This document shows, piece after piece, positions 48,980 to 54,791 of a DNA stretch of 64,000 bases. Positions within the stretch are counted from its first letter, which is position 1; each line of letters begins with the position of its first letter. Source of the stretch: Gloeomargarita sp. SRBZ-1_bins_9 (GTDB taxonomy: Bacteria > Cyanobacteriota > Cyanobacteriia > Gloeomargaritales > Gloeomargaritaceae); the NCBI GenBank assembly GCA_039794565.1, contig JAUQVX010000009.1, positions 1 to 64,000 on the forward strand, read 5' to 3'. A program made the translations under genes and the position numbers. A model generated the notes under the pieces. That model saw only the letters and a program-made list of their open reading frames with translations. It was not told where the DNA came from and made no database searches.

Positions 48980-49558
48980 ATGGCGCAAGTAGCCATTGTT
49001 TACTTTTCTGGGATGGGGCATACGCACCTGATGGCCGAGGCCGTGGCTGCTGGTGCCCAGCAGGTACCCGGAACCACGGTGGAACTGTTGCGGATTACGG
49101 GGGAGCAGATTCACCAGGGGCGTTGGCAGGACGAAACCTACCTGGAGCGACTCCACCGAGCGGATGCCATTGTATTTGGCTCGCCGACCTATATGGGGGG
49201 GGTAGCTGCCCAATTCAAGGCGTTTTTAGATGCCACCAGTGGGATTTGGTTCCAACAGCGCTGGAAGGATAAGCTGGCGGGGGGATTCACCCATTCCAGT
49301 TCCCCCAGCGGCGATAAACAGGGCACGCTGCTGTACTTGGTCGTCCATGCGGCCCAGCACGGCATGGTCTGGGTGGGAGCAGCCGATTTACCCGACGCCA
49401 CAGGGGTCAATCGGTTAGGGTCATTTTTGGGGGTGATGGGGCAAAGTCCCATGCCGATGGATGGTCAACCCACCCTGGACCCCGGCGACCGGGAAACAGC
49501 CGTGCGTTATGGCCAGCGCATCGCTCAGTTGGCCCGGCGATGGACTAAGGCTGTGTAG
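48980..49558 (+). CDS. Flavodoxin-fold NAD(P)H:quinone oxidoreductase-like protein
   Basis: 192 residues of the WrbA/flavodoxin superfamily: VAIVYFSGMGHTHLMAEAV (phosphate loop), ADAIVFGSPTYMGGVAAQFKAFLDAT and a Ser-rich loop GGFTHSSSPSGDKQGTLLYL. The family binds FMN and reduces quinones. It is divergent from the Asr1405-type gene; a TTGCAC/TACGAT pair at 48924-48950 (15-nt spacing) could be its promoter. The stop overlaps a slipin remnant by 14 nt. Confidence 0.85.
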   Translation: MAQVAIVYFSGMGHTHLMAEAVAAGAQQVPGTTVELLRITGEQIHQGRWQDETYLERLHRADAIVFGSPTYMGGVAAQFKAFLDATSGIWFQQRWKDKLAGGFTHSSSPSGDKQGTLLYLVVHAAQHGMVWVGAADLPDATGVNRLGSFLGVMGQSPMPMDGQPTLDPGDRETAVRYGQRIAQLARRWTKAV

Positions 49559-50176
49559 AACGAAACCCTGTCGCTTTTGCGCGCCCCAGGGAGGCCAAGG
49601 CATGGCCCAACTCCATGGGGAAGGCTACTGGCCAGGCCGTTTCCGCTATGAGTTTCGCAGCCTCCACCGTCAGCCCCCAGTGGCGCACCTTTTCCCCCAC
49701 GATAGCGGCAATTTGCTCCTGGATTTTCTCCCGCTCCGAGAGCAGTTCATCCACAGGGAAGAGGCCCCCACCACGGGCGGATTGGGCGTACAGAGACGTG
49801 GCAAAGCGGTAGTCCTGCCCCCGAGTCACCGCCGGCGCCGTCAATTACCACCGGCACATTGTCCCGGCTGATGGCCCGCTGGCGGGGAGTGTTGAGTACC
49901 TGTACCCGCAGTCCACAAACCCCACGGTTTCCAGAATGGGTGGGACATAGAACACCCCCAGCCCCCGTACCTCGCTCAAGCGCCCAAAGAATTACCCCCT
50001 TTACTCGCACCCCAGCGACCCATGCCCACCAACGCTGTCACCGGCCAGGGCGTCCGTTCGGGAATTTTGGGTGTTCTCCAGGCCAGCAGCAACAATAGGT
50101 CGTCCCAGGGGTGGGCATACAGCCGCGCACCCTCTCGCTCCTGAATGATTGTCGGTACCTCTGTGGCAGTTACCAT
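49545..50176 (-). pseudogene. Broken slipin (SPFH/band 7) gene
   Basis: Slipins are membrane proteins with an N-terminal helix and SPFH domain. Pieces in order on the minus strand: LLLLLAWRTPKI near 50110, a basic GMGRWGASKG region near 50025, VILWALERGTG near 49990, LRVQVLNTPRQRAISRDNVPVVIDGAG near 49900-49850, then DYRFATSLYAQ and VDELLSEREKIQEQIAAIVGEK in another frame up to 49545. These match slipin landmarks (RGP..., RTQVLEVPPQEVITRDNV, DYRFAT, LDELLSEREKI), but at least two frameshifts and missing segments break the gene. Confidence 0.75.
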
Positions 50177-50185
50177 GAGAAGTCG

Positions 50186-51454
50186 CTAAGACCCGGAATA
50201 GCGGGACCCGCGCCACTGTAATTTACTGCTTTTGCTGTCCTTTCCTGTGCCGGCCTCTCGGGATTGCCGCTGATGGGGGAGCTCAAGCGGGAGGTTCGCT
50301 GGCGCAAATAGGGGTGGTTTGGCGGCCAGAGAGCGCGGCAGGGGGGCGTAATGACTCACAAGGGTCAGTAACTGCTCCGGGGTAAAGGGTTTAAGCAGGA
50401 TGTCGGTCACCGTCGGCGAGGAAATTTGCTGGTCCATCGTATCCTCAACGGGGGCCATGAGAATGAGGGGGGTTTCCTGGCAGACCGGCGTTTTCCGCAA
50501 AAAATTACACAGCTCCTGGCTGTTGACCGTCGCCAGCCCCTTGTCAATCAAAATGACATCGGGGTTGGCCTCCAGCAGCGCCGTGATTTGCAGCATGGGG
50601 TCGGCAATGGCCAGGACGCGATAACCCGCTTGCACCAGTACCGTTTCTAGGTACTTGAGCATCACCGGGCTGGCATCCAAGCAGGCCACGACGGGTTGCC
50701 GGGTTGAGGTTTCTAGGTCTGTAAAGGTCGTGACCGGCGCGCTCTGCCCCATCACCGGACTGGGTAAATCCGGCAATAGTTGCAACTCCACCCAGCCCCG
50801 TTGCACCCACTGTACCACCGGTCCTACTGTGGCCTTGAGGGGTTTGCGGGTCAGATTCATGATGTCCCACAGGGTGTACTGGCCGCTGAGCAGCATGGGC
50901 CACTCTGGACTGGGGATCTGGTGGGTGCGCTGGGCCACTGGTGTCCAGTCGGGGGAAAGTTGCGCGCCGTTCGACAGTTGCCGGACACCGGTGGCCTGCC
51001 ATTGCTCCCGCAACTGCTGGGCCTCCTGCACCACCTGTTCCACCTGTAAAAGGGCAATCTGGCGCTCCAGGCTCTGCCCCATCTGCAATTGAACCGTGAC
51101 CTCATCGGCGGCCAAGACGGCAAATAACACCTCTAAAACACTACTGAGAATAACCGCCTTCGCCTGGGTGGGGGTCAAACGGCCCTGGATTGTGCCCTGC
51201 ACCAGCGCCCAATACTCCCACGGCTGGGTGGCTTCTAAGGCCGACCAATCCGGTTGAAATTGGGGGCAATGGGTTTCTACCGCCCGATACCAGCGGCGCA
51301 CCCGATGGCTCCCCCCAGTGGCGTACAACAACCGCCCCATAAAAAAATACAGCCACCAGTGCTGTTGCCCGGACTCAACCACTAACGTCCCCGTCACCTG
51401 TTGCTGATGCAAAGCCGTCAGCTCACGCCGTATGTCATGGGTGATATTGCTCAT
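50186..51454 (-). CDS. PATAN-REC protein with degenerate receiver
   Basis: 422 residues. PATAN/DUF4388 domain (about 10-230) starts LTALHQQQVTGTLVVESG, with QHWWLYFFMGRLLYATGGSHRVRRWY. A receiver-like domain follows (about 256-370): VVACLDASPVMLKYL, phospho-Asp304 in VILIDKGLAT, KPFTPEQL. The second acidic residue is Ala261, the Thr/Ser switch sits in MAPVED and the Pro-rich loop after the Asp is lost, so phosphorylation is doubtful. PATAN-REC proteins (PixG, LsiR-type) act in phototaxis signalling by binding partners. It is a close paralogue of the next gene. The tail is short and basic. Confidence 0.88.
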   Translation of the reverse strand: MSNITHDIRRELTALHQQQVTGTLVVESGQQHWWLYFFMGRLLYATGGSHRVRRWYRAVETHCPQFQPDWSALEATQPWEYWALVQGTIQGRLTPTQAKAVILSSVLEVLFAVLAADEVTVQLQMGQSLERQIALLQVEQVVQEAQQLREQWQATGVRQLSNGAQLSPDWTPVAQRTHQIPSPEWPMLLSGQYTLWDIMNLTRKPLKATVGPVVQWVQRGWVELQLLPDLPSPVMGQSAPVTTFTDLETSTRQPVVACLDASPVMLKYLETVLVQAGYRVLAIADPMLQITALLEANPDVILIDKGLATVNSQELCNFLRKTPVCQETPLILMAPVEDTMDQQISSPTVTDILLKPFTPEQLLTLVSHYAPLPRSLAAKPPLFAPANLPLELPHQRQSREAGTGKDSKSSKLQWRGSRYSGS

Positions 51455-51518
51455 GTACCTTCCCCTAGCCTAACCCCCACTGTCGGTGTATGATGGTGTA
51501 TGATAGCGACCCCCAGAC

Positions 51519-51556
51519 TTCGTAAGTGTTCTTTTTGTAACAGTTCGTAAATGTTC
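51519..51556. repeat. Direct repeat pair in the promoter region between PATAN genes
   Basis: TTCGTAAGTGTTC at 51519-51531 and TTCGTAAATGTTC at 51544-51556, one mismatch, 25 nt start to start. Between them lies TTTTTGTAACAG. They stand upstream of the 50186-51454 gene and could be a tandem operator. The GGTGTATGAT pair near 51485-51502 is a second, shorter repeat in the same gap. Confidence 0.5.
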
Positions 51557-51580
51557 GGGAACTCCTAGACAGCAGCCAAT

Positions 51581-53353
51581 CTAGGTATCGACCACTTGGG
51601 GTAGGACAGCACCGGTCAAGTTGGCCCCCTCTAAATGGGTCTGTTCCATCTGGGCTTGCCAAAGGTTAGCGCCAGTAAGGTTGGCCCGTTCCAGGTTGGC
51701 CCGATGCAAAACTGCTCCGTGAAGGTTGGTAGCGTACAGGTTGGTTTGCCACAAATCAGCACCGGTGAAATTAGCACCGGCAGCCAGGGCTTCACTCAAA
51801 TTGGCCCCCCGTAGCCGGCTCTGGGAGAAGTTGGCGGAGCTAAGATTACTGTTGACCAATTGGGCGTTACTGAGGTTGGCCTGGCTGAGGTTGGCCCCGA
51901 TCAGATTGGCGCCGCTGAGGTTGGCTTCCCGCAAATTAGTTTTGACCAATTCGGCACCCATCAAATTAGCACCCGTCAGCTTGGCACCGGTCAGCAAACA
52001 ACCGCTTAAGTTCGCCAGCATCAGCTCTGCGCGACAGAGATTGATACCTTCTAGGTTGGCCCCCTGCAGGTTACAGCCAACTAGGCGCATCCCACTGAAA
52101 TCCCGCTCACCCGCAGCGTAGCGTTCCAGCAGTTGCCGGGCCTGGACATCCGGGTCCTCCAGATGGTCCTCCACCTGTTCCGGGTCCGGGGGGGCTGCAG
52201 GGATAGGTTCAAGGGGGATACCAACCTCCCTAGTCATCGGCCGGTGCAAGGGGGCGTAACGACCGACCAATTGCAATAATTCCTCGGGATTCAGCGGCTT
52301 TTTGAGGATTTCCGTAACCCCAGCCAAGCGGGCGCGGGTGCGGTTGACAATGCCCTCATGGGCCGTGATCAGAAAAATCGGCGTATCCCGAAAAGTGGAT
52401 GTTTTGCGTAGTAAAGCACACAGTTCATAGCCGTTGACATGGGGCATCACCCAGTCCATGAGGATGACATCCGGTTTCGCCTCCAGCAGGGCGGCCATCT
52501 GGGTCATCGGTTCCGCCAGCGTCATCACCCGATAACCGGCGCGGGCCAGGGTGCCTTCCACAACTTTGAGCATCACCGGGCTGTCGTCCAGACAAGCAAT
52601 CAGGGGCTGGTCAGGGTTGTCTGGGGTGCGGACAGAGCTAGATTCCTGCACTGGGGCCGGCAAATCCGGTATCACCTGCAGTTCCACCCACCCCTGTTGT
52701 ACCCACCGCACAATCGGCCCGACGGTCTGCAGCACTGACTTGCGGGTTAACCCAACCAAATCCCAGAGGGTCTGTTGGCCCCTAAGCCAAGCCACCCACT
52801 GTTGATCAGGGATACTGTCCGGCCGGCAGGCTATGGGAGCCAAATCAGGGGATAAGTGTTTGGCCACATGCTGCAACTGCCCCCAGCCTGCCGCTTGCCA
52901 TTGGTGCTGCAACTGGGCGACCTCCTCGAGCACCCGTTCCACCTGCAACAGGGCAATTTGACTGCCCAAACCCTGGCCTGCCTGGAAACGATAGGTCACC
53001 TGGTCCTGGGCAAGGATGGTAAACAACACCTCCAAAACGCTATTCCAGATGACGGCTTTGGCCTGAGCCGGCGTCAAACGTCCCTGCTTGGTTCCCTGCA
53101 CCAACGCCCAATACTCCCACGGCTGGGTGGCTTCTAAAGCCGACCAATCCGGTTGAAATTGGGGACAGTGAGCCTTCAGGCTACGATACCAGCGCCGCAC
53201 CCGGTGGCTCCCCCCGGTGGCGTACAGCAAGCGGCCTAGGAAGAAATACAACCACCATCGCTGTCCCCCCGCTTGCACATGCAGGGTGCCCGTTGCTTGC
53301 CGTTGCTGACAGGCCAGGAGTTCCTGCTTGAAATCTTGGTTCACACCAACCAT
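51581..53353 (-). CDS. PATAN-REC-pentapeptide fusion protein
   Basis: 590 residues. PATAN domain (about 8-230) nearly identical in the segment DWSALEATQPWEYWALVQGT to its downstream neighbour; receiver (250-370) with full set Asp256/Asp257, phospho-Asp300 in VILMDWVMPHVNGYE, LITAHEG Thr and Lys351; linker with Pro/Glu; then pentapeptide repeats from about 418 to 585 (SGMRLVGCNLQGANLEGINL and so on). The helix would present a surface controlled by phosphorylation. This domain order is unusual. It begins 40 nt after the kinase stop, so they are likely one operon. Confidence 0.9.
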   Translation of the reverse strand: MVGVNQDFKQELLACQQRQATGTLHVQAGGQRWWLYFFLGRLLYATGGSHRVRRWYRSLKAHCPQFQPDWSALEATQPWEYWALVQGTKQGRLTPAQAKAVIWNSVLEVLFTILAQDQVTYRFQAGQGLGSQIALLQVERVLEEVAQLQHQWQAAGWGQLQHVAKHLSPDLAPIACRPDSIPDQQWVAWLRGQQTLWDLVGLTRKSVLQTVGPIVRWVQQGWVELQVIPDLPAPVQESSSVRTPDNPDQPLIACLDDSPVMLKVVEGTLARAGYRVMTLAEPMTQMAALLEAKPDVILMDWVMPHVNGYELCALLRKTSTFRDTPIFLITAHEGIVNRTRARLAGVTEILKKPLNPEELLQLVGRYAPLHRPMTREVGIPLEPIPAAPPDPEQVEDHLEDPDVQARQLLERYAAGERDFSGMRLVGCNLQGANLEGINLCRAELMLANLSGCLLTGAKLTGANLMGAELVKTNLREANLSGANLIGANLSQANLSNAQLVNSNLSSANFSQSRLRGANLSEALAAGANFTGADLWQTNLYATNLHGAVLHRANLERANLTGANLWQAQMEQTHLEGANLTGAVLPQVVDT

Positions 53354-53393
53354 CCCACCTTGAGGCCCTCTCCCTTCTTAGCGTAACGGTTTT

Positions 53394-54359
53394 CTAAACC
53401 GGTTTACTATGTCCCAGTTCCTGGGCAGAGTGCGCACGGGCCGCCCGGGGCAACTCCAAAACCAACCCCTGGTCCAACAACAACCGCCCCTGGATGCGCT
53501 CCACCAGCATCTGGGTGATGGCCAGTCCCATACTGGGTCGCGTCGGCCCCAAGGGATACCACAATTCCCCCAGCTCTAACTCCGGTACACCAATCTGCAA
53601 ACCACTGCCATCGCGCCAGGAACGCACCTGCACCTGGGCTTGCCCTGGGGTGTGGGTCAAGGCATAGTCCAACACCTGCACCAGAACCGGCACAAGCAAC
53701 TTCGGGTCCGTCCACACCGGCGGTACATCCTGAATGCGCCATACCACCCGTTCGCCACCCTGCCGTCCCTCCAACTCCTGCATGACCTCCGGCACCAAAT
53801 CCGCCAGGTACACGGGCCGGAAATGCCCCGGCGTCATCTGCCAGCGGGCCACCTGCAACACCGTCTCGATCAAATTGGTCAACTGCTGCACCTGCCCCTG
53901 CACAATTTCCAGAAAGTGACGGATTTGCTCCCGGCTCAAGCGGTCCTGGGCCTGCAACAAGGTTTCGACAAAACCCTTGATGCTGGTCAGGGGGGTGCGC
54001 AATTCGTGGCTGACGGTGGCCATGAATTCCTCCTGGGACTGCTCCAAATCCCGACTGTGCTCCGGAATAAAACTCCACACCAACCCGGTGAGGTTCGGCT
54101 GGGTGAGGGGCCGCACCGTGACCCGCATCACCAACCAATTGTCCTGCTGGCCTAAACGCACCCGCCCCCCGGCGTCGCGCCAGCGTAAATAGGGCGTCAA
54201 TTCCGGCCAAAACTCAGTAATGCCATGGCCCTGGAGGCGCTGGGGATCAAAGCAAAACCAATCGGCCATGGCCCAATTGCAGTGCTCAATCCGCCCCTGC
54301 TCTGTGGTCAACACCACCCCAATCGGTAGACAATTGATAAGGTCGGCAGCCAAGGTCAT
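53394..54359 (-). CDS. PAS-HisKA protein with degenerate ATPase domain
   Basis: 321 residues. PAS-like sensor (about 5-100); HisKA with an intact His118 in MATVSHELRTPLTSIKGF; then an HATPase-like region. In the N-box the sequence is VLVQVLDYALTHTP where kinases have NLLxNALKYTP: the key Asn is Tyr232. No DxGxG (G1) motif is present and only SMGLAI resembles the G2 box. ATP binding therefore looks lost. It would serve as a phosphotransfer hub or dimerising partner rather than a kinase. First of three signalling genes on this strand. Confidence 0.85.
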   Translation of the reverse strand: MTLAADLINCLPIGVVLTTEQGRIEHCNWAMADWFCFDPQRLQGHGITEFWPELTPYLRWRDAGGRVRLGQQDNWLVMRVTVRPLTQPNLTGLVWSFIPEHSRDLEQSQEEFMATVSHELRTPLTSIKGFVETLLQAQDRLSREQIRHFLEIVQGQVQQLTNLIETVLQVARWQMTPGHFRPVYLADLVPEVMQELEGRQGGERVVWRIQDVPPVWTDPKLLVPVLVQVLDYALTHTPGQAQVQVRSWRDGSGLQIGVPELELGELWYPLGPTRPSMGLAITQMLVERIQGRLLLDQGLVLELPRAARAHSAQELGHSKPV

Positions 54360-54579: not shown

Positions 54580-54726
54580 CTAGCAGGGACAACCGGCGTG
54601 ACCACAACCCGACCCCTGGGGATGCCCCTGGGCACAGGCCTCGCTGCAATAGACCTTATCCCCTACCCGGATGGCCGTCGCCGGGTCCACCTGGCACACA
54701 CACCGCTCACAGTCGCACTTGACCAT
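54580..54726 (-). CDS. smtA: Bacterial metallothionein (SmtA/BmtA family)
   Basis: 48 residues: MVKCDCERCVCQVDPATAI then VGDKVYCSEACAQGHPQGSG and CGHAGCPC. The nine cysteines and two His are in the SmtA order (C-x-C..C-x-C..CSEAC..GH..GCGH-GC-C), so it can bind about four Zn/Cd ions. GGAGG ribosome site 6 nt before the ATG. The gene is short and easily overlooked. SmtB-type operator upstream; no smtB gene is in the window. It lies 220 nt upstream of the kinase gene on the same strand; I see nothing in that gap. Confidence 0.94.
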   Translation of the reverse strand: MVKCDCERCVCQVDPATAIRVGDKVYCSEACAQGHPQGSGCGHAGCPC

Positions 54727-54775: not shown

Positions 54776-54791
54776 ATGAACATACGTTCAT
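54776..54791. promoter_or_regulatory. SmtB/ArsR-type operator
   Basis: Inverted repeat ATGAAC-ATAC-GTTCAT, 50 nt upstream of the metallothionein ATG, resembling the 12-2-12 ATGAACA/TGTTCAT sites of SmtB, ZiaR and related zinc repressors. TATAGT/TATGTT boxes follow on the minus side and could be the -10. It also lies between metallothionein and divergent transaldolase, so it may affect both. Confidence 0.78.

Follow-up and report, generated by a model that had tools for sequence, protein, structure and literature searches.

What does a histidine kinase that lacks ATP-binding motifs do beside a PATAN-receiver protein carrying a long tail of pentapeptide repeats? The question is raised by three genes of Gloeomargarita sp. 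SRBZ-1_bins_9, whose assembly comprises 2.2 Mb in 21 contigs; they lie in a stretch of 64,000 nucleotides that was analysed as a whole and is referred to below as the window. Judged from its sequence and that of its relatives, the kinase became joined to a PATAN effector locus and probably persists as a phosphotransferase or phosphatase that works without ATP.

Gene organization

The three genes are collinear on the minus strand, with open reading frames at exactly the coordinates of the initial annotation: a PAS-HisKA pseudokinase of 321 aa (HK; 53394..54359), a PATAN-REC-pentapeptide protein of 590 aa (PRP; 51581..53353) and a PATAN-REC paralogue of the latter with a degenerate receiver, 422 aa in length (PRR; 50186..51454). 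The gap between PRP and HK is 40 nt and that between PRR and PRP is 126 nt. All domains located in the following sections are likewise on the minus strand.

The family Gloeomargaritaceae was represented by eight genomes, namely seven species of Gloeomargarita (G000 to G006), the genus of the window's closest relatives, and one member of a sister genus, C42_A2020_066 (G007; L102, L103). The contig of Gloeomargarita sp. SKYG116 (L099) is identical with that of G006. Genome searches used one genome per species and covered 194-390 cyanobacterial genomes per query.

The three genes had been regarded as a single signalling system, but as a conserved unit this did not hold: all three are found together only in G000, G001 and G006, three of the seven Gloeomargarita species, and PRR stands beside PRP in those alone. 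HK adjoins PRP in the same direction in five of the seven (G000, G001, G004, G005 and G006), with a short gap in four of these and about 540 nt in G005. Scattering of the genes in close relatives, which would speak against a common system, is therefore seen in part. HK is separated from PRP in G002 and in G003, the latter retaining a permease-HK pair common to four other genomes, and PRP and a complete HK lie far apart in the sister genus.

The PATAN-receiver-pentapeptide protein

Pfam profiles match PRP at 44.6 bits (DUF4388, the PATAN domain; PF14332), 76.2 bits (Response_reg; PF00072) and 148.1 bits (Pentapeptide; PF00805), the PATAN and receiver matches being above their cut-offs. The predicted structure of the 590-residue protein, with a mean pLDDT of 80.5, shows a PATAN fold, a receiver, a low-confidence linker (residues 372-398) and a regular beta-solenoid. 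The PATAN region occupies residues 8-236 (52646..53332). The receiver (residues 250-368; 52250..52606) matches CheY-type receivers in structure and is complete, as had been proposed, with D256, D257, D300, T330 and K352 invariant in seven orthologues. The C-terminal part (residues 416-585; 51599..52108) was thought to hold about 30 pentapeptides; a count of the register gives 34, with a hydrophobic centre in 33 of them, and the model places a strand every five residues with a pLDDT of about 84-96. PRP thus has the tandem A(D/N)LXX repeats forming a beta-helix by which pentapeptide-repeat proteins are recognized. This is the most constrained part of the protein, with a dN/dS of 0.066 (here and below by the pairwise Nei-Gojobori method, with synonymous sites partly saturated).

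Both PRP and PRR show the order of PATAN followed by receiver that is typical of the PATAN-REC regulators PatA, PixG, PixE and LsiR. PRP differs from these in adding 34 pentapeptides beyond a disordered linker, whereas the known members considered end at the receiver (PMC7690835, together with general knowledge of the family). The order PATAN-REC-pentapeptide, noted at the outset as unfamiliar, is real and belongs to one family. PRP is present in all eight Gloeomargaritaceae genomes, although in G003 (L023:7737-10653) a DDE_Tnp_1 transposase ORF splits the part that codes for the receiver, while HK is intact elsewhere in that genome. No PRP was detected in about 380 other cyanobacterial genomes, where scoring was applied to the three best candidates of each. 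The PATAN-REC-matching GTDB loci inspected outside the family have no pentapeptide repeats within the matching ORF, and no pentapeptide gene lies within the 1.5-kb flanks of the closest PATAN-REC genes in other families. The open-licence papers searched, on PATAN with pentapeptide and on Gloeomargarita with histidine kinase, hold no description of this conserved three-domain PATAN protein or of its neighbours.

The sister genus encodes a second copy of PRP (L028:2836-6237) as part of a protein of 1133 aa with the order PATAN-REC-pentapeptide-PAS-GGDEF-EAL, in which turnover of c-di-GMP would be coupled to this same sensor and scaffold. Separately, a second PATAN-REC gene is found divergent to a free pentapeptide gene of about 300 aa in all six Gloeomargarita genomes examined (L191:5587-7999; equivalents in L194-L198). 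Here the two modules are associated a second time; among such close relatives the recurrence of the pair may be simple inheritance.

The type IV pilus apparatus is the supposed target of PATAN-REC proteins (PMC7690835). Motor ATPases of the pilus are present in Gloeomargarita, as is a Che/Pil operon that includes a CheA and a PATAN-REC protein of its own, so that type IV pili would be the default output of PRP, as knowledge of the family suggests. It is conceivable, though we doubt it, that the output lies instead with a target of the pentapeptide helix, bound in the manner of HetL or of MfpA/Qnr, and that PATAN-REC serves as the switch. The strong constraint on the helix would suit this arrangement, and its fold is the beta-helix of HetL and of the MfpA/Qnr proteins; pentapeptide helices, however, all adopt this one fold regardless of their binding partner, so that the match carries little information. 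HetL is moreover free-standing, unlike PRP, which reaches 110.7 against the HetL equivalog cut-off of 260, and Gloeomargarita is unicellular.

The paralogue PRR

PRR matches DUF4388 (PATAN) at 42.4 bits and Response_reg at 37.9 bits. Its receiver is damaged, in agreement with the first reading: the DD pair has become DA in all three species that carry the gene and two of them also lack the switch Thr, while the acceptor Asp and the Lys are kept. PRR thus departs from the PATAN-REC response regulators, in which the receiver is complete. The gene is confined to G000, G001 and G006 and forms a clade supported at 100/100, and judged by this tree it arose from PRP by a tandem duplication specific to that clade. 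The PATAN domains of the two proteins had been said to agree almost word for word. This is true of a local patch only, overall identity across PATAN-REC being 59%. Near codons 60-90 the two genes reach up to 85% nucleotide identity in the window's genome, more than in the two sister species, which suggests local gene conversion.

The degenerate histidine kinase

HK matches HisKA (PF00512) at 65.2 bits and PAS weakly, and a Pfam scan of the window's protein gave no HATPase_c match at E<=1. The original description of a kinase that keeps His118 and lacks ATP-binding motifs was borne out, the absence of the motifs being conserved across seven Gloeomargarita species. His118, the predicted phospho-acceptor (codon CAC, 54006..54008), sits within HELRTP in the DHp domain (residues 105-175; 53835..54047) and is retained in seven of seven. 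The stretch HELRTPLTSIKGF is unchanged in these seven proteins and in ten of twelve complete orthologues, the remaining two showing a single T to I, and the alignment places the His, Glu and Thr of the HExxT motif in every Gloeomargarita HK. In the CA domain (residues 176-305; 53445..53834), by contrast with an active histidine kinase, all seven have Tyr for the N-box Asn, a degraded G2 box, and neither G1 box nor ATP lid. HATPase_c scores are 84-102 bits in three complete orthologues tested versus <=17 bits in the seven Gloeomargarita proteins. An AlphaFold2 model of HK built from a 3-sequence alignment had a pLDDT of 40.

The change in sequence is selective for one domain. Relative to the other complete orthologues, the CA domain is 30% identical in Gloeomargarita versus 48% in the sister genus, so that it has diverged, whereas DHp helix 1 has held, at 73% versus 78%. 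This helix bears the His; in other kinases it also provides much of the surface on which receivers dock. From its sequence HK would be expected to dock receivers yet be unable to bind ATP in the usual way.

Loss of the ATPase motifs might simply mark HK as a decaying pseudogene, a reading that we consider scarcely credible and that is ruled out at the level of the sequence. The ORF is open in all seven species, with 67-78% identity to the window's protein, dN/dS is 0.14-0.25 depending on the domain, and one shared loss was followed by conservation. Even the degenerate CA domain is 77% identical within the genus, and its dN/dS across the seven species (0.155), close to that of the DHp domain (0.137), indicates that it is under purifying selection.

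A new conserved motif, GVPEL-LG-LWYP-GP-RP, stands in place of the G1 box and lid, as if the CA domain had acquired a new binding role. HK might accordingly be a regulator that acts by binding and without ATP, either as a reader of a phosphorylated receiver, like DivL, or as a mixed-dimer partner, like ChrS. Precedents exist in DivL (PMC4211667) and in the frameshifted pseudokinase form of ChrS (PMC9491836), both histidine kinases with a non-working catalytic domain. We regard this as unlikely. DivL has Tyr550 in place of the His and no phosphatase activity, whereas HK keeps His118 along with the remainder of the HExxT triad in seven species; the ChrS frameshift is of laboratory origin, whereas HK is fixed in the genus.

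Transfer or dephosphorylation by HK is favoured because the His, Glu and Thr are kept and because ChpT (PMC3433190) and PhyT (PMC5898713), phosphotransferases of the same anatomy, provide precedents. As far as sequence can tell, HK combines, as they do, a His-bearing DHp domain with a CA-like domain unable to bind ATP, and all three are kinase-derived phospho-histidine proteins without a working ATPase. HK differs from ChpT and PhyT in having a PAS domain and in descending from a PhoR/PnpS-like kinase linked to rpaA, and transfer is in its case a candidate activity.

Ancestry of the kinase

Each Gloeomargaritaceae genome holds a single orthologue of HK. When the sister-genus protein was used as query, close orthologues were found in only eleven genomes outside the family (families f14, f30, f33, f20 and f29) among 194 cyanobacterial genomes. 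Together with the sister-genus protein these make twelve complete kinases, which come from the sister genus and from early-branching cyanobacteria. The kinase tree unites Gloeomargarita with the sister genus (100/98) and recovers the whole group of rpaA-linked orthologues (82/89). The Gloeomargarita branch consists of one long stem (1.3) followed by branches of ordinary length. From this single stem, the later conservation and the low dN/dS it follows that ATP binding was lost once, at the base of Gloeomargarita, and that the product has been kept ever since.

In ten of the twelve orthologues (the sister genus and nine others) the complete kinase lies directly downstream of rpaA on the same strand, while the rpaA locus of the seven Gloeomargarita genomes no longer contains HK. 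HK is therefore a retired RpaA-linked kinase, an origin that is not visible from the window's sequence alone. The name RpaA for the OmpR-type regulator upstream of the orthologues is taken from a PDB match, the Gloeomargarita protein matching the RpaA chain of 9dvt with an E-value of 1.8e-137, since NCBIfam gave no RpaA name; the Gloeomargarita proteins are 85-88% identical to that of the sister genus.

RpaA is the master regulator of the day-night clock. A KaiB-domain match was absent from exactly nine of the 194 genomes, each of which carries the rpaA-HK pair; among the 185 genomes with a KaiB match the pair was seen in the sister genus only. At these nine loci (L071, L072, L073, L074, L075, L076, L077, L078 and L080) a complete PAS-HisKA kinase lies immediately 3′ of rpaA, and a GGDEF-REC gene often comes next; no full-length orthologue of the latter was recovered in Gloeomargaritaceae. 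The nine belong to three neighbouring families in the kinase tree, so that the coincidence may reflect a single event and not an independent correlation. The rpaA-adjacent kinase is nevertheless a candidate RpaA kinase for clock-less lineages, that is, for cyanobacteria without KaiB and SasA. Gloeobacter violaceus is known to be without kaiC (PMC5520375).

SasA acts on RpaA as its kinase and CikA as its phosphatase (PMC5520375). The complete HK orthologues are comparable in being encoded beside rpaA; HK, with a putative action on RpaA, differs in having a PAS domain, no KaiB-like N-terminal domain and a PhoR/PnpS-like similarity. It is quite possible, if not what we would choose, that HK still serves RpaA as a dedicated phosphatase or phosphate sink, in a role like that of CikA, and that its position beside PRP is incidental. 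Such a role would agree with the ancestral position next to rpaA and the conserved DHp helix 1, with the survival of HK in genomes whose PRP is interrupted or lies elsewhere, and with the presence in Gloeomargarita of KaiB and SasA, which would be available to phosphorylate RpaA. It is harder to reconcile with the disappearance of HK from the rpaA locus in this genus and with its linkage to PRP in five of seven species.

Proposed role of the locus

Our best explanation, offered tentatively, is that HK acts as an ATP-independent phosphotransferase or phosphatase for PRP, that PRP is a gated PATAN effector and that PRR is its competitor. HK, formerly an RpaA-linked histidine kinase, would now be a phospho-histidine protein incapable of phosphorylating itself. 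Another kinase, for which the CheA of the Pil operon is a candidate, would phosphorylate a receiver, which would then pass its phosphate to His118 of HK or lose it by way of the HExxT motif. The receiver of the neighbouring PRP would be the most likely client, favoured because of the linkage described above. PRP would be a phosphorylation-gated effector working in the way supposed for other PATAN-REC proteins, namely on the type IV pilus apparatus, with its beta-helix as an added protein-docking scaffold. The receiver of PRR probably cannot be phosphorylated in the normal way, and PRR and PRP would be competitors for the target of the PATAN domain.

Counted against PRP as the client are the two species in which the genes are unlinked, the broken PRP of G003, where HK is intact, and the distance between the genes in the sister genus. 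RpaA is nearly as likely a client, because of the ancestry of HK, its unchanged docking helix and its persistence irrespective of PRP. The sequences show the anatomy of the proteins, their orthology and distribution, the single loss of the ATPase core and the purifying selection; the biochemical activity of HK, its partner (PRP or RpaA) and the output (type IV pili or another) are what we infer. In a bolder and rather improbable version, a kinase that once phosphorylated RpaA in clock-less cyanobacteria was deprived of its ATPase in Gloeomargarita and became part of a new phosphorelay between RpaA-type signalling and the PATAN-pentapeptide effector; if true, the clock or light regulator would be joined to cell movement or surface behaviour. 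HK offers a phylogenetically bracketed case of a kinase turned pseudokinase with complete relatives on hand, in which the step to a phosphotransferase or phosphatase is testable.

Adjacent genes

Upstream of HK lies a small Cys-rich ORF, MVKCDCERCVCQVDPATAIRVGDKVYCSEACAQGHPQGSGCGHAGCPC (54580-54726, minus strand), likely to encode a bacterial metallothionein of the SmtA/BmtA type. The palindrome TGAACGTATGTTCA (54777-54790), just upstream of this ORF, could be an operator of the SmtB type; neither was seen at the equivalent loci of relatives. On the other side, the gene 3′ of PRR (about 49545-50175, minus strand) is intact in G001 and G006 (..FGQPSLDIEKKLQERMPWLVA) and appears to be frameshifted or shortened in the window's genome.
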